Notes under the pieces: model-generated
Seen by the model: only the letters and a program-made list of their open reading frames with translations
What the model was told of the DNA's origin: nothing
The model's database searches: none
Assembly (NCBI RefSeq): GCF_020740795.1
Contig: NC_067282.1
Coordinates: 152,444,858 to 152,508,857, forward strand
Direction: 5' to 3'
Length of the DNA stretch: 64,000 bases
Source: Apus apus
Taxonomy: Eukaryota > Chordata > Aves > Apodiformes > Apodidae
Shown here: piece by piece, positions 1,858 through 63,837 of the stretch
How the letters are laid out: every line of letters starts with the position of its first letter
Position numbering within the stretch: position 1 is the stretch's first letter
Program-made: the position numbers and the translations under genes

Positions 1858-3187
1858 CTAGATGGCTGACTCCCTACGATATGAGATTGTGTCTAGGGGT
1901 AGAGTTGCCTGGAGCCTCTCCAGATCCAGGTGGCTTCCAAAATCCATCATCTGGATGATGCCTCCCTCTTCTTTAGTGTTGCCCTCTAACACCACACCCA
2001 CTTCATCGTCATCTTCATCTTCATCTTGACTGACAAGAGCCAGCTCGTTCTCATAGCAGAAGGCACTAGGAGGTGGGGGAGAAGGTAGGATAGTCATCTT
2101 GCTTTCTTGCAGTTCCCGGGCTGAGCAGCAAGGTGTGCCAGCTACCTCATAGGTCTTGTGAAAGCGTGAATAATCTACTTTATAATGGTTCTTCTCCTCA
2201 AACACAACTGGTTCAAAACGGTGACCCCAAAGGATTTCACTAGCAAGGTAAGAGCTTCGTGCCTGGGTGGTCATGGCTGTGGCTTCCACCATCCCCTCCA
2301 GGATAACAACAATCTCAAAGTTCTCTGTCTCCAGCTCCTCCTTGCCAATCCCATAGAGTGGGCTCTCCTCGTCAATCTCATGAACAATAATAATGGGTGA
2401 GACCAAAAATATACGGTCGAGGCCCACATCATAGCCCACATTTAGGTCCCGCTGGTCCAGGGGGAGGTATTCACCTTCCTCTGTCATGTAGGGCTTGATG
2501 AGCTGGGCTCGGACGTGGGCCTCCACAATGTGGCTCCTCCTCAGGTTGCCTACCCGCCACATGAGGCACAGTTTGCCATCCCGCACAGAGATGACCGCAT
2601 GGTGACTGAAGAGGAGGGTCTGGGCCCGCTTCTTGGGCCTCGCCATCTTGGCCATGATGGTGCCAATCATGAAGGAGTCAATAACACAGCCCACGATGGA
2701 CTGGACCACAACTGCCATGATAGCCAGCGGGCACTCCTCAGTCACACAGCGGAAGCCATACCCAATGGTTGTCTGTGTCTCCACTGAGAAGAGAAAAGCC
2801 CCTAGGAAGCTGTTCACGTGCATGATGCAGGGCTTGAGGAGAGAAGGACCACCTCCCACTGCCGGAGCATTGAGGTCACCATGGAAGAAAGCGATGCACC
2901 AGAAAAGGAAGCCAAAGAAGAGCCAGGAGGCCAGGAAGGCAGCAGAGAAGATCATGAGCATGTACCTCCAGCGTGTGTCCACACAGGTGGTGAAGATGTC
3001 GGCCATGTAGCGCTGAGACTTGTTGCTCAGGTTGGCAAAGTAGACGTTGCACTGGCCGTTCTTCTTCACGAAGCGGTTGCGGTGCTTCCTCCGAGGGGCG
3101 TGGCCCTTCCCGTTTCGGCTGTGCCCGTTCATGCTGCCCAGCGCAGAGACCTTGTGTCCATCCTCTTCCGTGGAGACAACGCTGTAC
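1858..3187 (-). CDS. KCNJ4: KCNJ4 coding exon 2 (main exon)
   Basis: Carries the last two bases of... the split Arg-8 codon's final base through the stop TAG/TGA-type end after RESAI, i.e. nearly all of the channel. The acceptor is a clear ...cttttccag just above 3187. The frame stays open past the acceptor to 3282 with a GTG, but that stretch is Ser/Cys/Phe-rich intron. An internal ATG at 3132 gives the 424-residue short form that corresponds to mammalian Kir2.3. Confidence 0.95.
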
Positions 3188-4537
3188 CTGGAAAAGAAGA
3201 AACAGGCTTTGCCAGCAGAAACAGATGAAGAACAACAGCAGCCACTGAGACAGCAAGGGTGGGAGACACACAGGCGGCTCACAAAGCTACGGCACCACAG
3301 TGTTGAACATCACAACAGCCCATTTCTCTGGCTCTGCCACCCTGACCAAATTGGTGGAGCTCGGCTGCAAGATTTGCCAAGTCTTGCTGCCAGGAAGTCG
3401 TATCTAGCAAAGTCCTGAGAGGGCAGCAAGACAGGAGAAGCTTGTAGAGCTGTGCTTCCTTCCAGCCCTTGTGGGGAGGAGCAACTCAAGGCTTCGAAAT
3501 CTGATGGCAGCTGGACCAGCTGGGAAGCAGGGAAGCAAGCACCCGCAGCCTGGCCACATTTTGGCCCCAGCATTATATAAGACCCCGAGTTTCTATTTTT
3601 TCCTCCTCTCTCCTCACTGATTTCATGGTGTGTCAGTGACAATGTTTATACACTTCTTGTGCTCAGGACAATTCTGTTGCCACAGCAACGCGCGTGGCTC
3701 CCATCATCCCACATCCAAAGCCAAAGGTGTAATTTGGAGATCAAGAGCCAAAGTGCTGGCAGATTTCCCTGGGAGAAGCTCCCAACACACTTTCTGGGAG
3801 ATGTTTTTCCCCTCCGGCTCCCCTCCCTCGCAGGCGGCATCGATGCTGCCCTTTGTGTGCTGCTGCATCTATGGTTTCAGATACTCATTAAAGACATGAT
3901 GATAGAAGATGCTCTGACCACTGAGGACATCAAGGGAGCGCATAGACCCACCAAGACCATTCTGCCCTCTTGACCACCAAGTCCTGGTTTCTCAGAACCA
4001 GTTGGGCTGGCAGTGCCTCCCACCCCATAGTGGAACCCTCTGGAACCTGCCAGCATAGGTTCTGTGACCCTGATCCTGCTCTCATGGGAAGAGGGAGCAG
4101 GGGAAGCATGTGTGGTTAGAATTTTGACTCCTGGGGACTCTGGGGGACAGGGGACTTCTGCAGGACTGCTGAAATCTGTAATTTCTGGTCCAGCACCATG
4201 CAGTGCTTTGCTTCTCCTCTGTTGCGCACCTCCTGTGAGCACTGCCCCCATGTATGGTGTGTCTTGGATTGGAGGAGGAGAGAGAAGGCATACCTTGAAG
4301 CAAGAAAGCCCCTGGCAGATAATTTGGGAAGAATATCACAGAATGATAGAATTGCTGTGGTTGGAAAAGACCTTTAAGATCATCAAGTTCAATGATTAAC
4401 CTGGCACACTGCCAAGTCCACTAAAAGGCAGGCTGAATTTAGGGCTTGAGGGATTAAATGAGGAGGACCAGGCCACCCTGGGCAGCAACAGTCCTTGAGA
4501 AGGGGGTTACTCACCGGTTGACTCGGACGCTGCCCAT
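1858..4537 (-). CDS. KCNJ4: Kir2.3 inward-rectifier potassium channel (two coding exons)
   Basis: Strong inward-rectifier K+ channel subunit that sets resting potential in neurons and heart and forms plasma-membrane tetramers. Coding exons are 4515-4537 and 1858-3187, joined across intron 3188-4514, giving 450 residues. Visible parts are the cytoplasmic N-terminus, TM1 around residues 83-107, the pore with selectivity filter TIGYGFR (GYG at 150-152), TM2 with the rectification aspartate D178 in VGCVID, a large cytoplasmic domain, an acidic tract near the C-terminus and a final RESAI (class I PDZ ligand). From residue 27 on, the protein matches mammalian Kir2.3 closely; the extracellular linker before the pore is shorter than in human. 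The first 26 residues ([18 protein letters not shown]...) match the Kir2.1/Kir2.2 N-terminus and are absent from the human Kir2.3 known to me, which starts at the equivalent of M27 (ATG at 3132). Confidence 0.95.
3573..3689 (-). promoter_or_regulatory. KCNJ4: Candidate internal KCNJ4 promoter (TATA and X-box)
   Basis: Inside KCNJ4 intron 1, TTATATAA (3573-3580, the same on both strands) lies downstream, on the minus strand, of GTTGCCACAGCAAC (3676-3689). The latter fits the RFX X-box consensus GTNRCC-N2-RGYAAC without a mismatch. A start about 30 bases beyond the TATA would give an unspliced mRNA whose main start is ATG 3132 (short Kir2.3). Motifs are seen; promoter activity is inference. Confidence 0.35.
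4334..4425 (-). mobile_element. CR1 LINE 3' end fragment
   Basis: A short reverse-oriented CR1 tail: a CACAGAATGATAGAAT-like terminal motif, then the GGTTGGAAAAGACCTTTAAGATCAT block and a degraded piece after it. It sits just past the donor of KCNJ4 exon 1, inside intron 1. It is truncated at its 5' side like most avian CR1 copies. Confidence 0.75.
4515..4537 (-). CDS. KCNJ4: KCNJ4 coding exon 1 (8-codon micro-exon with start)
   Basis: Twenty-three coding bases give MGSVRVN plus two bases of Arg-8, followed by a consensus donor gtgagtaa. Joined to 3187 the reading is [18 protein letters not shown], close to human Kir2.1 MGSVRTNRYSIVSSEEDG. The ATG has a strong context (gagccATGG). A candidate acceptor (ctcccag) ends at 4576, so the full exon may be 4515-4575 with more 5' UTR upstream. 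Too short for ORF callers. Homology and splice sites are seen; use in transcripts is inferred. Confidence 0.85.
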
Positions 4538-4575
4538 GGCTCGCTGTATCATCAGGTGTCAGGGGGTGGCAGGAG

Positions 4576-10000: not shown

Positions 10001-12179
10001 CCATCCCCAGCCATGTCCCTGCACCTGGGTGTTTCTCCAGCACAGAGCCCCTCCTGAGCCCATGCTGGCCAGGCCAGGAGGGATGCCTATGTGGGGTCTC
10101 TTGATGGCTTTTGCCTAGTTGGGGGTGAGGATTATTATCAGTGCACAGAAACAGAGGGGCAAGGGCAGCTCACATCATCTGCCTGTCGCTGCAGTCGCAC
10201 CTCTGGTAAGGCAGGGTTGGTCTGTTGGTGCTTCTGCAAAGCACCATGAGAGGCAGGCACGTGCAAATGGGTTTTGAATGATGATAACAACAGTGACAGC
10301 AGCAAAAGGCGAGCAATACACAGGTCAAAGCCTGCTCTGCACCAGGCCCCCAGCCAAGAGTGGCTGCAGCCGCTGCTGCTCAAGGGCTGCCTTCTCAGCC
10401 TGGCCTGGCTGCTCAGTGTTAACCCATCAGCAACCGGGAATAAAAAATTCCTCCCCTCCAGACCCTTGCTGCTGCTCTAACAAGAAGCCCTGCAGAACCA
10501 ACAGCCTCCCGAGGGTGTCCCAGCTTCTCCTCTTTCAGTTATGCCTGCTAAGCACCAGAAACAGAGCTGATGGAGCATCCCAGGTAAGCTGCAAAATTGC
10601 CCTCCCGCAGCGAGAGGATCAGCTATTTCACTACAAATCTGCTGACTTGTATTGCTGCAGCTTGCTCGGTGGTGTGGTTAAACAAATGTACCTGAAAGAC
10701 ATCAAGCCTTGGTGCTGCCCAATGCCTGTGGTAGGGAGGACTGTCCCCTGCCTCTTCCTCCTGCCCTCCCAGGTGGCAGGGGCTGCCAGCATGGACAGGC
10801 TCAGTGGTAGAGTGGTGAGAAGCTCAAGACATGGCAGCTCTGTTTGCATGCTGCTACACCTGTGAAATCTCCCCTCTCCCACCATTGCTATGAATTGCTG
10901 TCATACCCCTGCTCCTCTGGGCTGCCATGCTCTCTCCTGCTGGCAGGATGTCCTGCCTGCTCACCTGCCTGCTCACCTGCCTGTCACCTGCTGGCACTCG
11001 GTGCTGCCCGCAGCTGCTGCCTGCTCACCTCCACCCAGACACAAGGCTCTTTCTTGGTGATGGGAAGGATGGGGACAGGAGAGGAAAGCAACTCCTAGGG
11101 CCACTGGGTCTAACCCTGTGGCAGGCACTACCAGCTCATAGTGCCCTTGAGGTTTTTTTGAGGAATGAAGTGCCTGCCTGTTGGGTGTCTGGGATCCCCG
11201 GTGCCCTTCAGCCCCCACAGTGCTGCTGGTGGGGCCAATATATATGGCTTTCATGGGGCTGTAGGGTGGCTTTACCCTCCTCTATAGAGGTGTGACTTTT
11301 GACATCCTCTTTCTAGAAGTCTCTGTTTGGCTGGCCCCTCTGCATAGGTGCCTAAGCAGGCTGCCAGTGAATGCTGTGGCCCAGCACAGAAAGGGAGCAG
11401 GTGAGAGGAGAGGGGACAGCAAAGATGAAGGCAGGGGAAGGGAGAACAGGCAGTGGAGAAGCAGACAGGATGAGGCCAGCAGCTCATTGCACCAGTGCTG
11501 GCACTGCTTTCTGGGGAGGAACTGAGGGAGGGAGGTGTAGGGGGAGACAGGAGAGGTGTTGGGGTCTTTTCTCCAAGCCTTTCACAGGGGACAGAGTGGG
11601 GGACGCTGCCTCCCTCTTTTTTGCACAGCACCAGACTCCCTCTTGTTTTGGGAGAAATGTTGCCATAGAAATAAAGCAGCCGTCCAGACTGCGAGGAGCA
11701 GACCCACTGCCATGGTGGCAGGGGCTGGTGCAGCATAGGCAGAGTGGCTGCAGGCCTCTCTGGCTGGAGGCTTGGGGCAGTGCCAGGCTGGAGGGTACCT
11801 TGTCCTCCATCCCCTGCTCCCTCACCTCCGGTGAGAGTGGCTGCGGTGCTGCTGTGCCAGCATGGCCAGTGCCAGCCCCAGGTGGCATCTCTCCCCAGGT
11901 GCACCAGTGGGTGAATGCTGAAACTGCCCCTACAGGCAAGCTGCCTGCCCTGGGCTCCTGAGAGGACAGGCATGGACATGCAAGGGTCTTTGAGGCAGCT
12001 GGACAGGGTCACGCTGCAGCCAGCTCTCATCCCCGCCTTCACTGCTGGAGAACAAGCCTGAGGGTGACAACCAGCTCACAGGCAGCCCCTACCCATCCCA
12101 AGCCCCCCACTGCTGGAAGACCAGCATCTCTTCCAAGGAGTGGCTTCAAGATCAACCATCCCCAGTAAAGCCACCTTGT
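7056..12179. other. Gene-free GC-rich stretch
   Basis: No coding exon recognised. Visible items are a perfect AP-1 type TGACTCA (9037-9043) in an AT-richer patch around 8.9-9.15 kb that looks like a possible enhancer core, a G-run at about 9209-9222, short repeats of CCTGCTCACCTG at 10.95-10.99 kb, and an X-box-like GTTGCCATAGAAAT (11659-11672). Long open frames such as 11272-12042 (minus) are composition-driven. Confidence 0.4.
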
Positions 12180-12490
12180 TTGGGGAGGAAAACCAACCCT
12201 GGGGGGCTCTGCGCGAGGCCCCTCCGCCCTGGCAAGGGGCACCAGGATCAGCGCCGCTGAGGAATACGCGTCCCTCCCCAGGCGGCTTCGCAGCGCCAGG
12301 CACAGGCAGCTTCTCACGGCCCTCAGCACTCACAGACAGCGAGCGGCAGCGGGGGGCCGGGGAGCTGCGCCTGGGAGCAAAGGGATCGATGGCCGAGACG
12401 CCAGCGTCCATCTATTGATCCTGGGCCGCGCTGCCGGGCTCAGCCAGCCCAGCGCAACGAGGAGCCGGGACAGCGGGAGCTTGCTGAGGG
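12180..12490 (-). promoter_or_regulatory. KCNJ4: Candidate KCNJ4 first (noncoding) exon and CpG-rich promoter
   Basis: A local CpG-rich patch stands out from the surrounding sequence. On the minus strand it contains a consensus donor, TGTCT|gtgagt, with the exon edge at 12334. Mammalian KCNJ4 has a noncoding first exon far upstream, and this is the best match in the window for such an exon. Start site and splicing to the acceptor near 4576 are inference. Confidence 0.35.
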
Positions 12491-15400
12491 CAGACTGCCA
12501 GGAACAGCTCGGCTCTGCCTCTGAGCTGCTGGCAGGTGCCCCTCACTGTGTCCTTCTCCCCCTTGCTGCCACCCTCACGGCAGCAGCACCACCCCAGGAA
12601 GGCAGCTGCTCCCAGGGTGGTGGCTGAGGCTGGCCCGAGTCCTGACAGGTCCTGACAGCTAACTCCATCCTTCCCTGGCCACGCTTCCCAGCTTTCTTTG
12701 CAAACCATGGAGGGGGGTGGCGAGGGGCGAGGACTGCTGCCAGACCCCTCTCAGCTCTACATATCATGGCACTGGGTCTTGGCACCCAATGAGGAGGGGA
12801 GGTGGAAGAGAAGAAAGGTGGAGAGGGAGCCCCGCTTCCCTACAGATCAGCCATCTCCAGCTCATCCTGTCCGTGACCATCTTCACCATCTCCCTGTCCC
12901 CATCAGGCTCACGTGTCCCTCCTAAGGCACGTGTTTCCCCTGTACTCATTGCCAGTGGCTACAAAGAGGGGTGGCCACATGCTGGGTTTGACCCAGGCAT
13001 CAGTGGGCACCACTTCCAATGGTGAATGGAGAGGGGACATGTCCCCATATCTTTGGTGCTCCCTGTACACCCCCCCTCCCCCATCCCCTTCCAGGCTCCA
13101 GGTGACCTCAAGCCCTGGGTCCCTCTCCACACCTCCCACCTCCTCTGGTTGCCTCCTCCCGCGACATGAGAAGGGCACAGAACAGGGGCTGAGAGTGGTC
13201 TGGGTCCTGTGTTAGCTTTGCCATGGATCCCCCACATGTGCTGTCACCATCTGCCCTTTGCAGAGTGCTCCACTAAAGGGAGGAAAGGGAGCTGGGGGAG
13301 GCCTTGGAGACACTATTGGCTCTGCCATGGATGGAGCTAGGGCTGGGCAGTTGGGATGGGAGACTCCAGGCTCTCGGCAGGGGGATTTGGTTGTCTCCAG
13401 GTGAATTGCCCAGGAGAGAGGGCATCAGGGGCTGCAGGTGGCACCAGGGATGTTGGAGGTGACCTGTCCATGTAATGCAAACCTGCCTGCCCACTCTTAC
13501 CCTGGCAGAGACACTGGCCTTGCTAACAAAGAGCAAGAGTACAGTTTCTCCCGAGCTCTCGGATCCAAACCCAGTATCCAGAAGATCCTTTGCACTCTGC
13601 CTATCTGTGGGATGCTGGCCCATCACCAGCAGCATCAGCTATGCTGGGACTAGAAAAGCTCAAAGACAAGAGAAGGGCAGGTCTGGAGCCCAGAAAGCTC
13701 CACAGACAGCGGGAGAGCCCACACAGCCTCTTTGACCTCAGTCACACCAGAGTGCTTGGAGAACAGGTCTCCAGCTTCATTCTTCTCCAGGCTGCCAGCC
13801 AGCCAGGACCATCTCCCTCAGAGAGCAGGAGAAACAAACAGTGAGCAAGACCCAGCTGTGGGGAAGGAGGCACTAAGGAAACACGGGGAACCAAAAAAAT
13901 TAAGAAGTTACCTGCAAAGGGACCAAAGTCAGGGCAGCGAGGGGAGGGAAGTTGGGGAGGTTTACAGGCAGGCACCTACCTCTGCCCCTTGGCCCATGGA
14001 CACCCCAGTAACCACATGTGCCTACACTGTGCACACAGGCAACTTTATTATTCACTGGCATGCTCACATGAAGCCACGCATCTCTCCCTAAGTTATATTT
14101 ATAGCTGTTCCTCAGAGCGAGTGCAGATCAAACAATTCATTATTTTCCTCAGGAAAAAAAAAACCCAAAAAAACCCAAACCCCTTCCCAGTCCCGCGCCA
14201 GTGAGGGCAGCCGCGCATCCCAGCACCGCCTCTTACCCGGGTCCTGCCGAGGGCTGCACCTACTCCAGCCGTGCCGAGCCAACATCAGGGGAGAGGGAAA
14301 GAGGCCAGTTTCTCCATCTCACCATGAAACATCTCAGCTGGACCGGAGGAATCGGGGAGGTCTCTCTGCAGCCCTCACTTGCCTCTGGCTTGGGGTGTTT
14401 TTTTTCTGCCCCCACCCCTAACCACCTTCGAGGAGCTACTTCTCCACTGCGACCTGCTTCTCTCCTAACTCTGCCCTGCCCACGCCAGTGCTCTCCTCCT
14501 GCCTCTGCCTCTCCTCAGCATTTTTTGCTCTCAGGAGCGTCCATCCCACGGAGTGCTGATGTGCCTTCACGGCTCAGCGATGGGTTCAGGTCTCCCCTTC
14601 CTGCTGGCTCCCTCCTTCCCTAGCGTTATTCACCTGTTCCCCTCACTGGCCCCCTGCTCTGGTCCCCAAATCCCCCTTCTTCCTTCCACTCTTCCTCCCT
14701 TTGCGCTCCTCTCCCTTGCTTTCCCTGGCTGCCTCTCCCCCTCGCTGATTGCTATGCAGTCTGTAGCTGAGAAGTCAGTAACTCTGTGGTAGGATCCAAC
14801 AGCTTTCCGCTACTTTAGCCCATCCTCGTGTGTGAGCTCAGCGCCGCGGAGGCACCGCTGCAGAGCTGACATGAGGGAGGCGAGAGCACAACCACCGGCA
14901 GAGGGAAGGGGACAGTGGGGCTGACAGATGCCCCCGGGGAGGTGAATCCTCCCGGGCTGAAATATCCACTCTCAAGGGGCTTTTTTCCCACCTGGATCTG
15001 GGGTGCTGGGCTGACAGCTCACCCTGAGGAAGGGACCAGGCTCTCCTGACTCATGCAGCGTGTTTGCCACAGGGCATCACCTCCCTGGACCCACAGCTCG
15101 GCCTCTCCACCCCACAGTGCTAGGTCTGTCCTGCTGGGGAAGGTGATGCTTGGGAACAGGAACACAGGCAAGGAGGGACCAGCCCTGTGGTTCCAGGACG
15201 GTGCATGTATGCCCCACCGGGAAACACGACCTGGAAACCTCTCCTGAGTCTCCATGGCCAGCAGCATCTCAGGGGCTTTGAAGAAGTCACTTCCCAGTAG
15301 CAAAGTGAGGGGCTGTATGACGCTGCAGCAGTGAAGCCACCCCTTTCATGCAGGAGAGAAGCTGGGAGCTGAAGTGAGCCCTGACCCTGCAGGCAGCAGC

Positions 15401-16595: not shown

Positions 16596-16778
16596 AGGGG
16601 TGGAGGAATGGAAGGGTGGGGCTATGGATGGAGGGATGGAAGAAAAGAGGGGGAAAAGGATGGAGGGAGGGATGGAGGATTGGACGGATGGGTAGAGATG
16701 GATGGATGGATGGATGGATGGATGGATGGATGGATGGATGGATGGACGGATGGACAGACAGGTGGGTGGGTGGGTGGA
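16596..16778 (+). repeat. (GATG)n microsatellite
   Basis: A clean core of about 12 GATG units (16697-16745) lies inside a longer degenerate GGATGGA/GGTGG zone. It produces repetitive MDGWMDGW and IHPSIHPS open frames that are not genes. The core is long enough to be length-polymorphic. Confidence 0.9.
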
Positions 16779-18080: not shown

Positions 18081-18310
18081 ATCATAGAATTGTTTTGCTT
18101 GGAAAAGACCTTTAAGATCACAAAGTCCAATCGTTAACCCAGCACTGCCAAGTCCACCACCAAACCATGTCCCTAAGTACCACATCTACATGGCTTTCAA
18201 ACACCTTCAGGGATGGTGACTCCACTACTTCCCAGAGAAGCCTGTTCCAGTGCCTGACAACCCTTTCAGTGAACAATTTTTTCTTAATATCCACTTTAAA
18301 GGAAGGCGCA
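18081..18310 (-). mobile_element. CR1 LINE 3' fragment
   Basis: Reverse-oriented CR1: tail AATCATAGAATTG, GGAAAAGACCTTTAAGATCA, the CCAAGTCCACCACCAAACCA block and TTCCCAGAGAAGCCTGTTCC, then decay after TTTTTTCTTAATATCCACTT. It is of the same subtype as the plus-strand copy at 59.2-59.7 kb. Confidence 0.9.
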
Positions 18311-20100
18311 AGATTAAGACAATGTCCCTTTACCACCCATAACAGTCTTACCCCTCTGCAGGAGGCTTCATTCCCTAGGTGGAACAAGAAGCTGTGAAGA
18401 GGAGCAGAGGGACTGGAGGATGATGAGGGCTCTCAGACATGGAGCGCCAGGGGCTTGAAAGGGGATGTGTCAGCATAGGGACCCTAAGTCTGTTCCACTT
18501 AAACCTTCCATCCCCACTCCATGGCTCAGACCTCTCTCTGCCCACCTGTGAAAGGACATGGGATACCAGGGAGCTGCTGAACCACATGGGCTGGGGATTG
18601 GCTTTCACAAGCACCCATATGGCCTTGCAGAACCCTGCTGAAACCCCAGGCAGCTCCTCTCCAGTGGCTTGAAAGCGAATTTCAGCCAGTCCCTATCCTG
18701 TCGCTCCCTCGCTGACACTCTTCCTTTGGTCTATCCTGCTGTTTTTCCACCACACCAGCCTCTGCCATGATGCCCTGGCAGGGGCAGGCTGGATCCTTCC
18801 AGGTTTCATGGGACTGAGACGGGTGTTTTCTAGCCAGGCCTGGCAACACAGCTGGAAAAGCCTGGTGCAGCAGGTGCTGAGTAGCAGAGAGGGAAAACAC
18901 AGCAGCCAGCCTAATGGGCAGAGAGGAAATGTATGCAAATATATTCAGAAAGGAATCCGGTGGTGCTAATAGACATGTTAGTCCTCTCCATAAGCACCAG
19001 GAATAATATTTTTATGCTTGAATCATTAAGGAGTTTACTCCAAGTGAGCCCATAGGGATGTGCTGCAGGGAGATGCGGAGGAGGTGGCTGCTGGTGACAG
19101 CTGGGGACAGGAAGGGCAGCAGCCAGAGCTGGCCCCAGGTCAAGAGCGGGCAGGGTCACACAACCCTTCAGTAACCAAATTAGATCCAAGGCCAGATGTG
19201 ATTTGCTTGGGGACAAGGTGACAAATTAAAACATCTGTTTGGTTGTATTAAAGCAGCTTTATACTAGTGATTAGATAATTAATACCTAATGGCCCCTTGT
19301 GCTGCCATGAGACCCCCCCAGTGTAACCACAGCTCCAAGGACAAGTTTTATCCCAACCGGCCTGGTCACCCCGGGCTGTTCCTGAATACATTAAAACTTT
19401 ACAACCATCATTAATAAGCTCATTTCTGTTAAATCTATTAAGATGGCAGTACTCACCCGTGTGCTTCTCTCACGCAACATGTGTATTACACTGTTTGTAA
19501 ACCAATTGCAGGAATCCAGGATTAATATTTTTAGCAAAGTTTGTTTCAAACCAGCCCTTGGAAGGATCGGATTTAATTTCCTTTCTCCTCTCCTCTTTCT
19601 GGGGCTGGGCTATGGGATTTGCATCTTTCCAGAAAGAACACCCAAGGTGGAGGCAGCTGGTGGGAGGGTCCCTGGGGTATGGCTGCCAGGGGAGAGAGGG
19701 GGTCTAGCTGGGATGTGACATGAAGCCACAGCAGTCCAATAATTCAGAACTCTCCCTGCTTCTTCATTTTCTTCAGGAGACAAGGTGGAGGACCAAGGAG
19801 AATGTGTTGGAGGCGGGACAGGGATGGGAAAGGGCAGAGGGCGGGAGGCTGCCTGCTGGGAGCAGGACAGAGGTTAATGCACACACCAGGAATGTCCCTG
19901 GAAAGCCAAGCCCTCACCAGAGGGTGCATCCCCAAGGCCAGAGGAGGGGGCTCCCTTTCCCTCTGCCTTTTCCCCTTTAACGACACTTCTGCGTGTAACT
20001 TGAGACAAGTTTGAGAAGAAAAAAAAGAGGAAGGAAAGAAAAAAAAAAAAAAAAAAGAGAAAGGGAAAAATAGTGCAGTTATTCCCGCCTCCGCCTCCTC
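18311..20100. other. Intergenic, AT-rich islands upstream of KDELR3
   Basis: No exon recognised. AT-rich islands at about 18.92-19.04 kb, 19.2-19.3 kb and 19.38-19.57 kb contain TAATTA/ATTAAT-type homeodomain-like words in GC-rich surroundings. They are candidates for conserved noncoding elements, which only alignment can test. A poly(A)-rich run lies near 20018-20058. Confidence 0.4.
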
Positions 20101-20517: not shown

Positions 20518-20608
20518 ATGAACGTCTTCCGCATCCTGGGGGACGTCTCCCACTTGCTGGCCATCATCATCCTCCTGCTGAAGATCCAGAAATCCAAGTC
20601 TTGTGCTG
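20518..20608 (+). CDS. KDELR3: KDELR3 exon 1 (coding part)
   Basis: Start ATG (ggcaccATGA context) to Gly-31, split 1/2; codes the first hydrophobic segment. Donor gtgagt. The upstream frame stays open to 20449 without a homologous extension, so the ATG at 20518 is chosen by family alignment. Confidence 0.95.
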
Positions 20609-63361: not shown

Positions 63362-63622
63362 TCACAAAATAATGGAATGGTTTGGGTTGGGAGGGACCTT
63401 AAAGGTCATCTAGTCCCAACCCCCCTGCCATGGGCAGGGACACCTCCCATCAGACCAGACTGCTCAGAGCCCCATCCAGCCTGGTCCTGAACGCTTCCAG
63501 GGAGGGGGCTTCCACAACTTCCCTGGGCAGCCTGTTCCAGTGTCTCACAGTGAAAAATTTCCTCCTAATGTCCAACCTAAATCTACCCTCCTCCAGTTTA
63601 AAGCCACTTCCCAGTACAGACT
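63362..63622 (-). mobile_element. CR1 LINE 3' fragment at the DMC1 5' side
   Basis: Minus-oriented, well-preserved CR1: GGAATGGTTTGGGTTGGGAG, CACCTCCCATCAGACCAG, GGGCAGCCTGTTCCAGTGTC and TCCTCCTAATGTCCAACC. The 113-residue minus open frame over 63450-63791 is derived from it. Confidence 0.92.
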
Positions 63623-63837
63623 GTCGGTGTGACAAGGACCAGGCCCCAGCACGTGGCAGGTTTTGAACTGCCAGGAACGTGGAAGCTGACGTGACTGGAG
63701 CGGAATTCGTGCCCCACATGAGGGGCAGGAGAAGCTCTGACCTGCCCCGAGGGGTGCCCTGGTGGAATTTCACGTCTGTTGTCAGAGGCAAATAAATGAT
63801 TAATCATGTATCAACACAGGGATCTATTTGGCTTTTC

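Follow-up and report, generated by a model that had tools for sequence, protein, structure and literature searches.

A probable start-codon exon of bird KCNJ4

We are confident that bases 4537 to 4515 on the minus strand of a 64,000-nucleotide stretch of the Apus apus genome (the window; contig NC_067282.1, positions 152,444,858–152,508,857) are the start-codon exon of bird KCNJ4, and that this exon is spliced to position 3187 to specify a long Kir2.3 of 450 residues. The exon is very probably real and coding, and very probably marks where the Kir2.1-type N-terminus of this channel truly begins. The features of the gene, listed in the direction of transcription, are as follows.

4515..4537, minus strand: first coding exon of KCNJ4 (coding part), running from the ATG through two bases of codon 8 (MGSVRVN plus CG) and ending in a phase 2 junction.
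4509..4514, minus strand: 5′ splice site GTGAGT (CCG/GTGAGT, a consensus donor), rank 4 of 1014 by an approximate consensus matrix.
3188..4514, minus strand: 1327-base intron interrupting codon 8, ahead of exon 2, placed from sequence and phase.
3188..3202, minus strand: 3′ splice site with the sequence TTTCTTCTTTTCCAG, which ranks first of 1602 by the same matrix.
1858..3187, minus strand: main coding exon (exon 2) of KCNJ4, from codon 8 to the stop, with the IRK and IRK_C domains, FCYENE at residue 384 of the product and the C-terminus RRESAI.
3133..3187, minus strand: end of codon 8 and codons 9–26, before M27; these bases would belong to the 5′ UTR if M27 were the only start.

The minus strand reads ATGGGCAGCGTCCGAGTCAACCG from 4537 to 4515 and then GTGAGT, with the same letters as in the preliminary description of this DNA. 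The start ATG at 4537 lies in the context CGAGCCATGG, with G at both −3 and +4, and the first base of exon 2 is 3187, directly after the acceptor sequence listed above. Splice sites were ranked on the minus strand from 22000 to 1858 with a consensus matrix whose frequencies are approximate. The ranks of the donor and acceptor, together with the sequence as read, bear out the earlier claim of a strong start context, a strong donor and an in-frame join to 3187. With donor and acceptor present and the phase open, the 4515/3187 junction gives a KCNJ4 product of 450 residues. The unspliced frame 5′ of 3187 runs into a stop at 3310, with no ATG before it. The exon-plus-donor string has a single exact occurrence in the whole genome.

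According to our model, splicing of the KCNJ4 mRNA would connect the 4537–4515 exon with position 3187 of exon 2, and initiation at the ATG of the exon would produce a Kir2.3 of 450 residues whose N-terminus is of the complete Kir2 type (IRK_N). This long Kir2.3 would have 26 residues more than the product of a start at M27, which corresponds to the inferred start of mammalian Kir2.3. Use of the 4515/3187 junction is predicted to be constitutive and not alternative. The preliminary description had the new peptide replacing the known Kir2.3 N-terminus; instead, the peptide adds 26 residues in front and everything from M27 onward is retained. It had also spoken of a 23-base micro-exon. There are indeed 23 bases of coding sequence, but this is the size of the coding part and not a proven exon length.

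Family profile, paralogues and selection on the N-terminal codons

Three KCNJ4 fragments with a common end residue were scored against the Pfam profile IRK_N (cut-off 25). The fragment starting at M27 scored 18.5 bits, which is below the cut-off. Including the exon 2 codons before M27 but leaving out the start exon gave 57.8 bits, and including the start exon gave 73.6 bits, with the match covering profile positions 1–45 of 45. The full 450-residue product scored 69.7 bits with IRK_N, and 209 and 254.5 bits with the IRK and IRK_C domains, respectively. The joined N-terminus also aligned with the Kir2.1 chain of PDB 7zdz over 1–113 with no leading gap, and no chain named Kir2.3 was among the 34 PDB sequences matched. 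The earlier statement that the N-terminus closely resembles that of Kir2.1 thus held for the profile score, for the alignment from residue 1 and for the exon itself, in which seven of eight residues agree.

Profile searches covered the whole genome (1.10 Gb, 110 contigs). The transmembrane IRK family was found in at least 14 places and IRK_N in three, which are KCNJ2, KCNJ12 and KCNJ4. These three were the only Kir2-like genes among the matches, with more than 60% identity to each other; the other IRK places had at most 57% identity over the main stretch and 58% over one 62-residue piece. Nothing resembling Kir2.4 (KCNJ14) was found among the at least 14 IRK-family places in the genome. The KCNJ2 and KCNJ12 frames are uninterrupted and carry the whole IRK_N profile in a single open frame (493 and 525 codons, respectively), whereas in KCNJ4 an intron interrupts codon 8 between its second and third bases. 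The genome search therefore recovered only IRK_N positions 7–45 at the KCNJ4 locus, because the remaining part of the profile sits on a separate exon.

Each of the eight start-exon residues is found at the corresponding position of KCNJ2 or KCNJ12, seven of them in KCNJ2 and V6 in KCNJ12. Kir2.1, from both the bird KCNJ2 gene and human (7zdz), has in common with the KCNJ4 product the N-terminus MGSVR-NRYS-VS-EEDG, the R44/R46 numbering and FCYENE. Kir2.2, encoded by bird KCNJ12, shares the YSIVSSEEDG block as well as V6 with KCNJ4. In contrast, its first eight residues (MTAGRVNP) equal those of KCNJ4 at only four positions, indicating that this stretch varies among Kir2 channels.

At the nucleotide level the start exon and KCNJ2 are equal at 19 of 23 bases. 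Of the differences between KCNJ4 and KCNJ2 over codons 1–18, 3 fall on the first, 1 on the second and 10 on the third codon position (Fisher p 0.0009); 8 codons are synonymous, 3 nonsynonymous and 7 identical. Judged from the sequence, this third-position excess is what would be expected under protein-level selection. Codons 9–18 have 2, 0 and 7 differences at positions 1, 2 and 3 (p 0.008) and keep 8 of the 10 Kir2.1 residues. For codons 1–8 the differences (1, 1 and 3) are too few and not significant (p 0.21), and codons 19–26, with 6, 3 and 5 differences and one of eight residues equal, carry no sign of constraint. Retention of codons 9–18 is the strongest sign of translation through the region upstream of M27. 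The presence of conserved codons in exon 2 before M27 would be explained by the start exon, which supplies the sole Kir2-like start found for codons 9–26.

Long form versus a short form starting at M27

An alternative to our model is that the exon is used alternatively, with long Kir2.3 made from some transcripts and a short form starting at M27 from others. The context of M27 (GGCAGCATGA, with A at −3) is acceptable. Moreover, the Golgi-export residue R20 of mammalian Kir2.3, as numbered in PMC6920955, fits a start at M27, residue 20 of the long form being K. However, transcripts that lack the start exon would carry the following element.

3129..3161, minus strand: out-of-frame AUG AAGAGGATGG that opens a frame of 10 codons; the closing TGA shares bases with the M27 ATG at 3132–3130 (ATGA).

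The AUG at 3161 has a strong context and would matter only in transcripts without the start exon. An exon-less transcript would meet this stronger, out-of-frame AUG first and, as its frame overlaps M27, initiation at M27 would need leaky scanning or reinitiation. Because skipping leaves a strong upstream AUG overlapping M27, these features favour the long form as the main KCNJ4 product. In addition, codons 9–18 have been kept as protein, so translation of the long form has to be at least frequent. We consider the production of two forms unlikely, and prefer a model in which long Kir2.3 is the regular product.

The 5′ edge of the exon and the upstream region

Acceptor-like sites upstream of the ATG were found at 4543 (score 2.0, rank 392, weak) and at 4575 (score 7.15, rank 82); their use would give exons of 29 and 61 bases, respectively, where an internal micro-exon would have 27 bases or fewer. 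Alternatively, 4515–4537 may belong to a first exon that has a start site of its own. At 4552 there is an in-frame ATG in a poor context, which would add five residues if it were within the mRNA. The 5′ end of KCNJ4 must lie before KDELR3, whose exon 1 starts at 20518 on the opposite strand. Splice-site scoring and a CpG scan identified no clear upstream exon or CpG island for KCNJ4, and no 500-base bin of 1–24000 had a CpG observed/expected ratio above 0.6. The ratio was 0.78 in the 250 bases from 12250, within the following candidate feature.

12150..12550, unstranded: weak candidate for the KCNJ4 promoter, at the peak of CpG density between 4000 and 20850, placed by CpG only.

A GGAT tandem array of about 24 copies occupies window positions 16658–16754, and a search of the whole window with Rfam gave zero matches at the gathering score.

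The weak upstream acceptor at 4543 might be taken to mean that the exon is a relic, the long N-terminus having been in use in this lineage until recently and the exon now being idle. However, the frame, the ATG context and the donor are all intact, the acceptor of exon 2 is the best of the region, and nothing similar was seen in 300 shuffles. We regard a relic as very improbable, and a functional start exon as the better account of these signals.

Likeness to Kir2.1 compared with chance

The residues encoded ahead of each of the 948 minus-strand GT dinucleotides between 22000 and 3188 were compared with the Kir2.1 start MGSVRTNR. Seven of eight residues matched at the GT of the start exon, which was the sole site of this kind; the next best were eight sites with 3 of 8 residues, and the remainder were lower. 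In 300 dinucleotide shuffles, the best match to MGSVRTNR was 3 residues in 177, 4 in 118 and 5 in 5. A chance likeness of a random ATG and donor, for which the shortness of the stretch and the choice of target after the fact might speak, has a negligible probability and was rejected, as 7 of 8 residues compares with at most 5 of 8 in the shuffles and the match to the family profile runs on into the part of exon 2 to which the exon is joined. Insertion of a processed or partial KCNJ2 copy upstream of KCNJ4 would account for the 19 of 23 bases equal to KCNJ2 but is hardly credible, since the likeness ends exactly at the donor, the KCNJ4 intron has no similarity to KCNJ2 at its inner edges (14 of 48 bases equal beyond the donor, and 8 of 23), the 30 bases before the ATG are without similarity by eye, and codons 9–18, in place in KCNJ4, carry the match on.

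Comparison with mammalian Kir2.3 and possible role of the extension

We take the human Kir2.3 sequence to start at the equivalent of bird M27. Mammalian KCNJ4 is the same gene by its domains and its neighbour KDELR3, and differs in that the described Kir2.3 is a form without the first 26 residues. In the trafficking literature, the N-terminal Golgi-export residue of Kir2.3 is R20 (PMC6920955) and the corresponding arginines of Kir2.1 are R44 and R46 (PMC8864065, PMC11422472). The long form of bird Kir2.3 has R44 and R46 in register with Kir2.1, and R46 is number 20 when counted from M27. Therefore, the mammalian Kir2.3 of the cited studies very probably starts at the M27 equivalent. FCYENE, further downstream, is given as an ER-export signal in the same source (PMC6920955).

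These positions bear on the role of the extension. The preliminary description held that the N-terminal segment affects trafficking, a statement that needs care because the mapped Golgi-export arginines are downstream of M27 and present in the short form. Since these residues are kept in the short form, Golgi export is unlikely to require the 26-residue extension. As a best guess, the extension would form a flexible tail in the cytoplasm and modulate gating or partner binding. In our model the added tail would thus be a cytoplasmic segment that tunes the channel and would be dispensable for assembly or Golgi export. The N-terminus contains an acidic block with Ser or Thr (VSTEEDG in KCNJ4; VSSEEDG in KCNJ2 and KCNJ12). 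By consensus, this block presumably resembles a possible casein kinase 2 site, which we treat as putative.

With the exon, Kir2.3 shares its N-terminal module with Kir2.1 and Kir2.2, and the Kir2.3 known from mammals may be a truncated version. Whether the short N-terminus of mammalian Kir2.3 is derived, alternative or the result of incomplete annotation is now a testable question. We put forward only tentatively, as a rather doubtful extension of our model, that vertebrate Kir2.3 ancestrally and natively carries the full Kir2 N-terminus and that the mammalian M27 start reflects an exon that was lost, decayed or missed. If this were true and the exon had been missed in mammals, published Kir2.3 gating and trafficking would have been measured on a channel short of 26 residues.

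Bird KCNJ4 models that start at M27 would likewise miss 26 residues, and the exon may well be present in automatic gene models that have RNA support. A full-text search of open papers gave no report of such a KCNJ4 exon among the titles, abstracts and listings returned. The strings MGSVR and MHGHSRNG retrieved no paper in the literature search, and neither KCNJ nor Kir2 occurs in PMC11317171. KCNJ4 models of zebra finch and chicken appear in a survey of songbird potassium channels from 2013, which lists the zebra finch model as complete; the start is not commented on in the available part of that survey (PMC3711925). The distance from known systems is small: this is an ordinary channel with a start exon that is easily missed.

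Gene identity and neighbouring sequences

By its domains and its neighbours KDELR3, DDX17 and DMC1, the gene is KCNJ4 and not another Kir2 gene. Domain matches to ER_lumen_recept, Helicase_C and Rad51 were found within the window, and KDELR3, with its first exon at 20518, is on the strand opposite to KCNJ4. We take the same three genes to flank KCNJ4 in human, and the bird gene is presumably orthologous to mammalian KCNJ4. When viral and prokaryote contigs were scanned with the bird Kir2.3 protein, 42 and 127 pattern matches were obtained, respectively, and 0 were confirmed in either set. This lack of viral and prokaryote relatives is as expected for an animal gene.

Two minor observations concern other sequences. 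The PEST segment in the C-terminus of KCNJ2 from this genome reads PESMSTDTH, a version that PMC6624654 lists for pigeon and zebra finch KCNJ2, with PESTSTDTH listed for chicken and quail. Within the window, the minus-strand open frames 18118–18432 and 63450–63803 have the common motif RHWNRL..EVVE.PSL and no Pfam match. We take this motif to be typical of avian CR1-type repeats.
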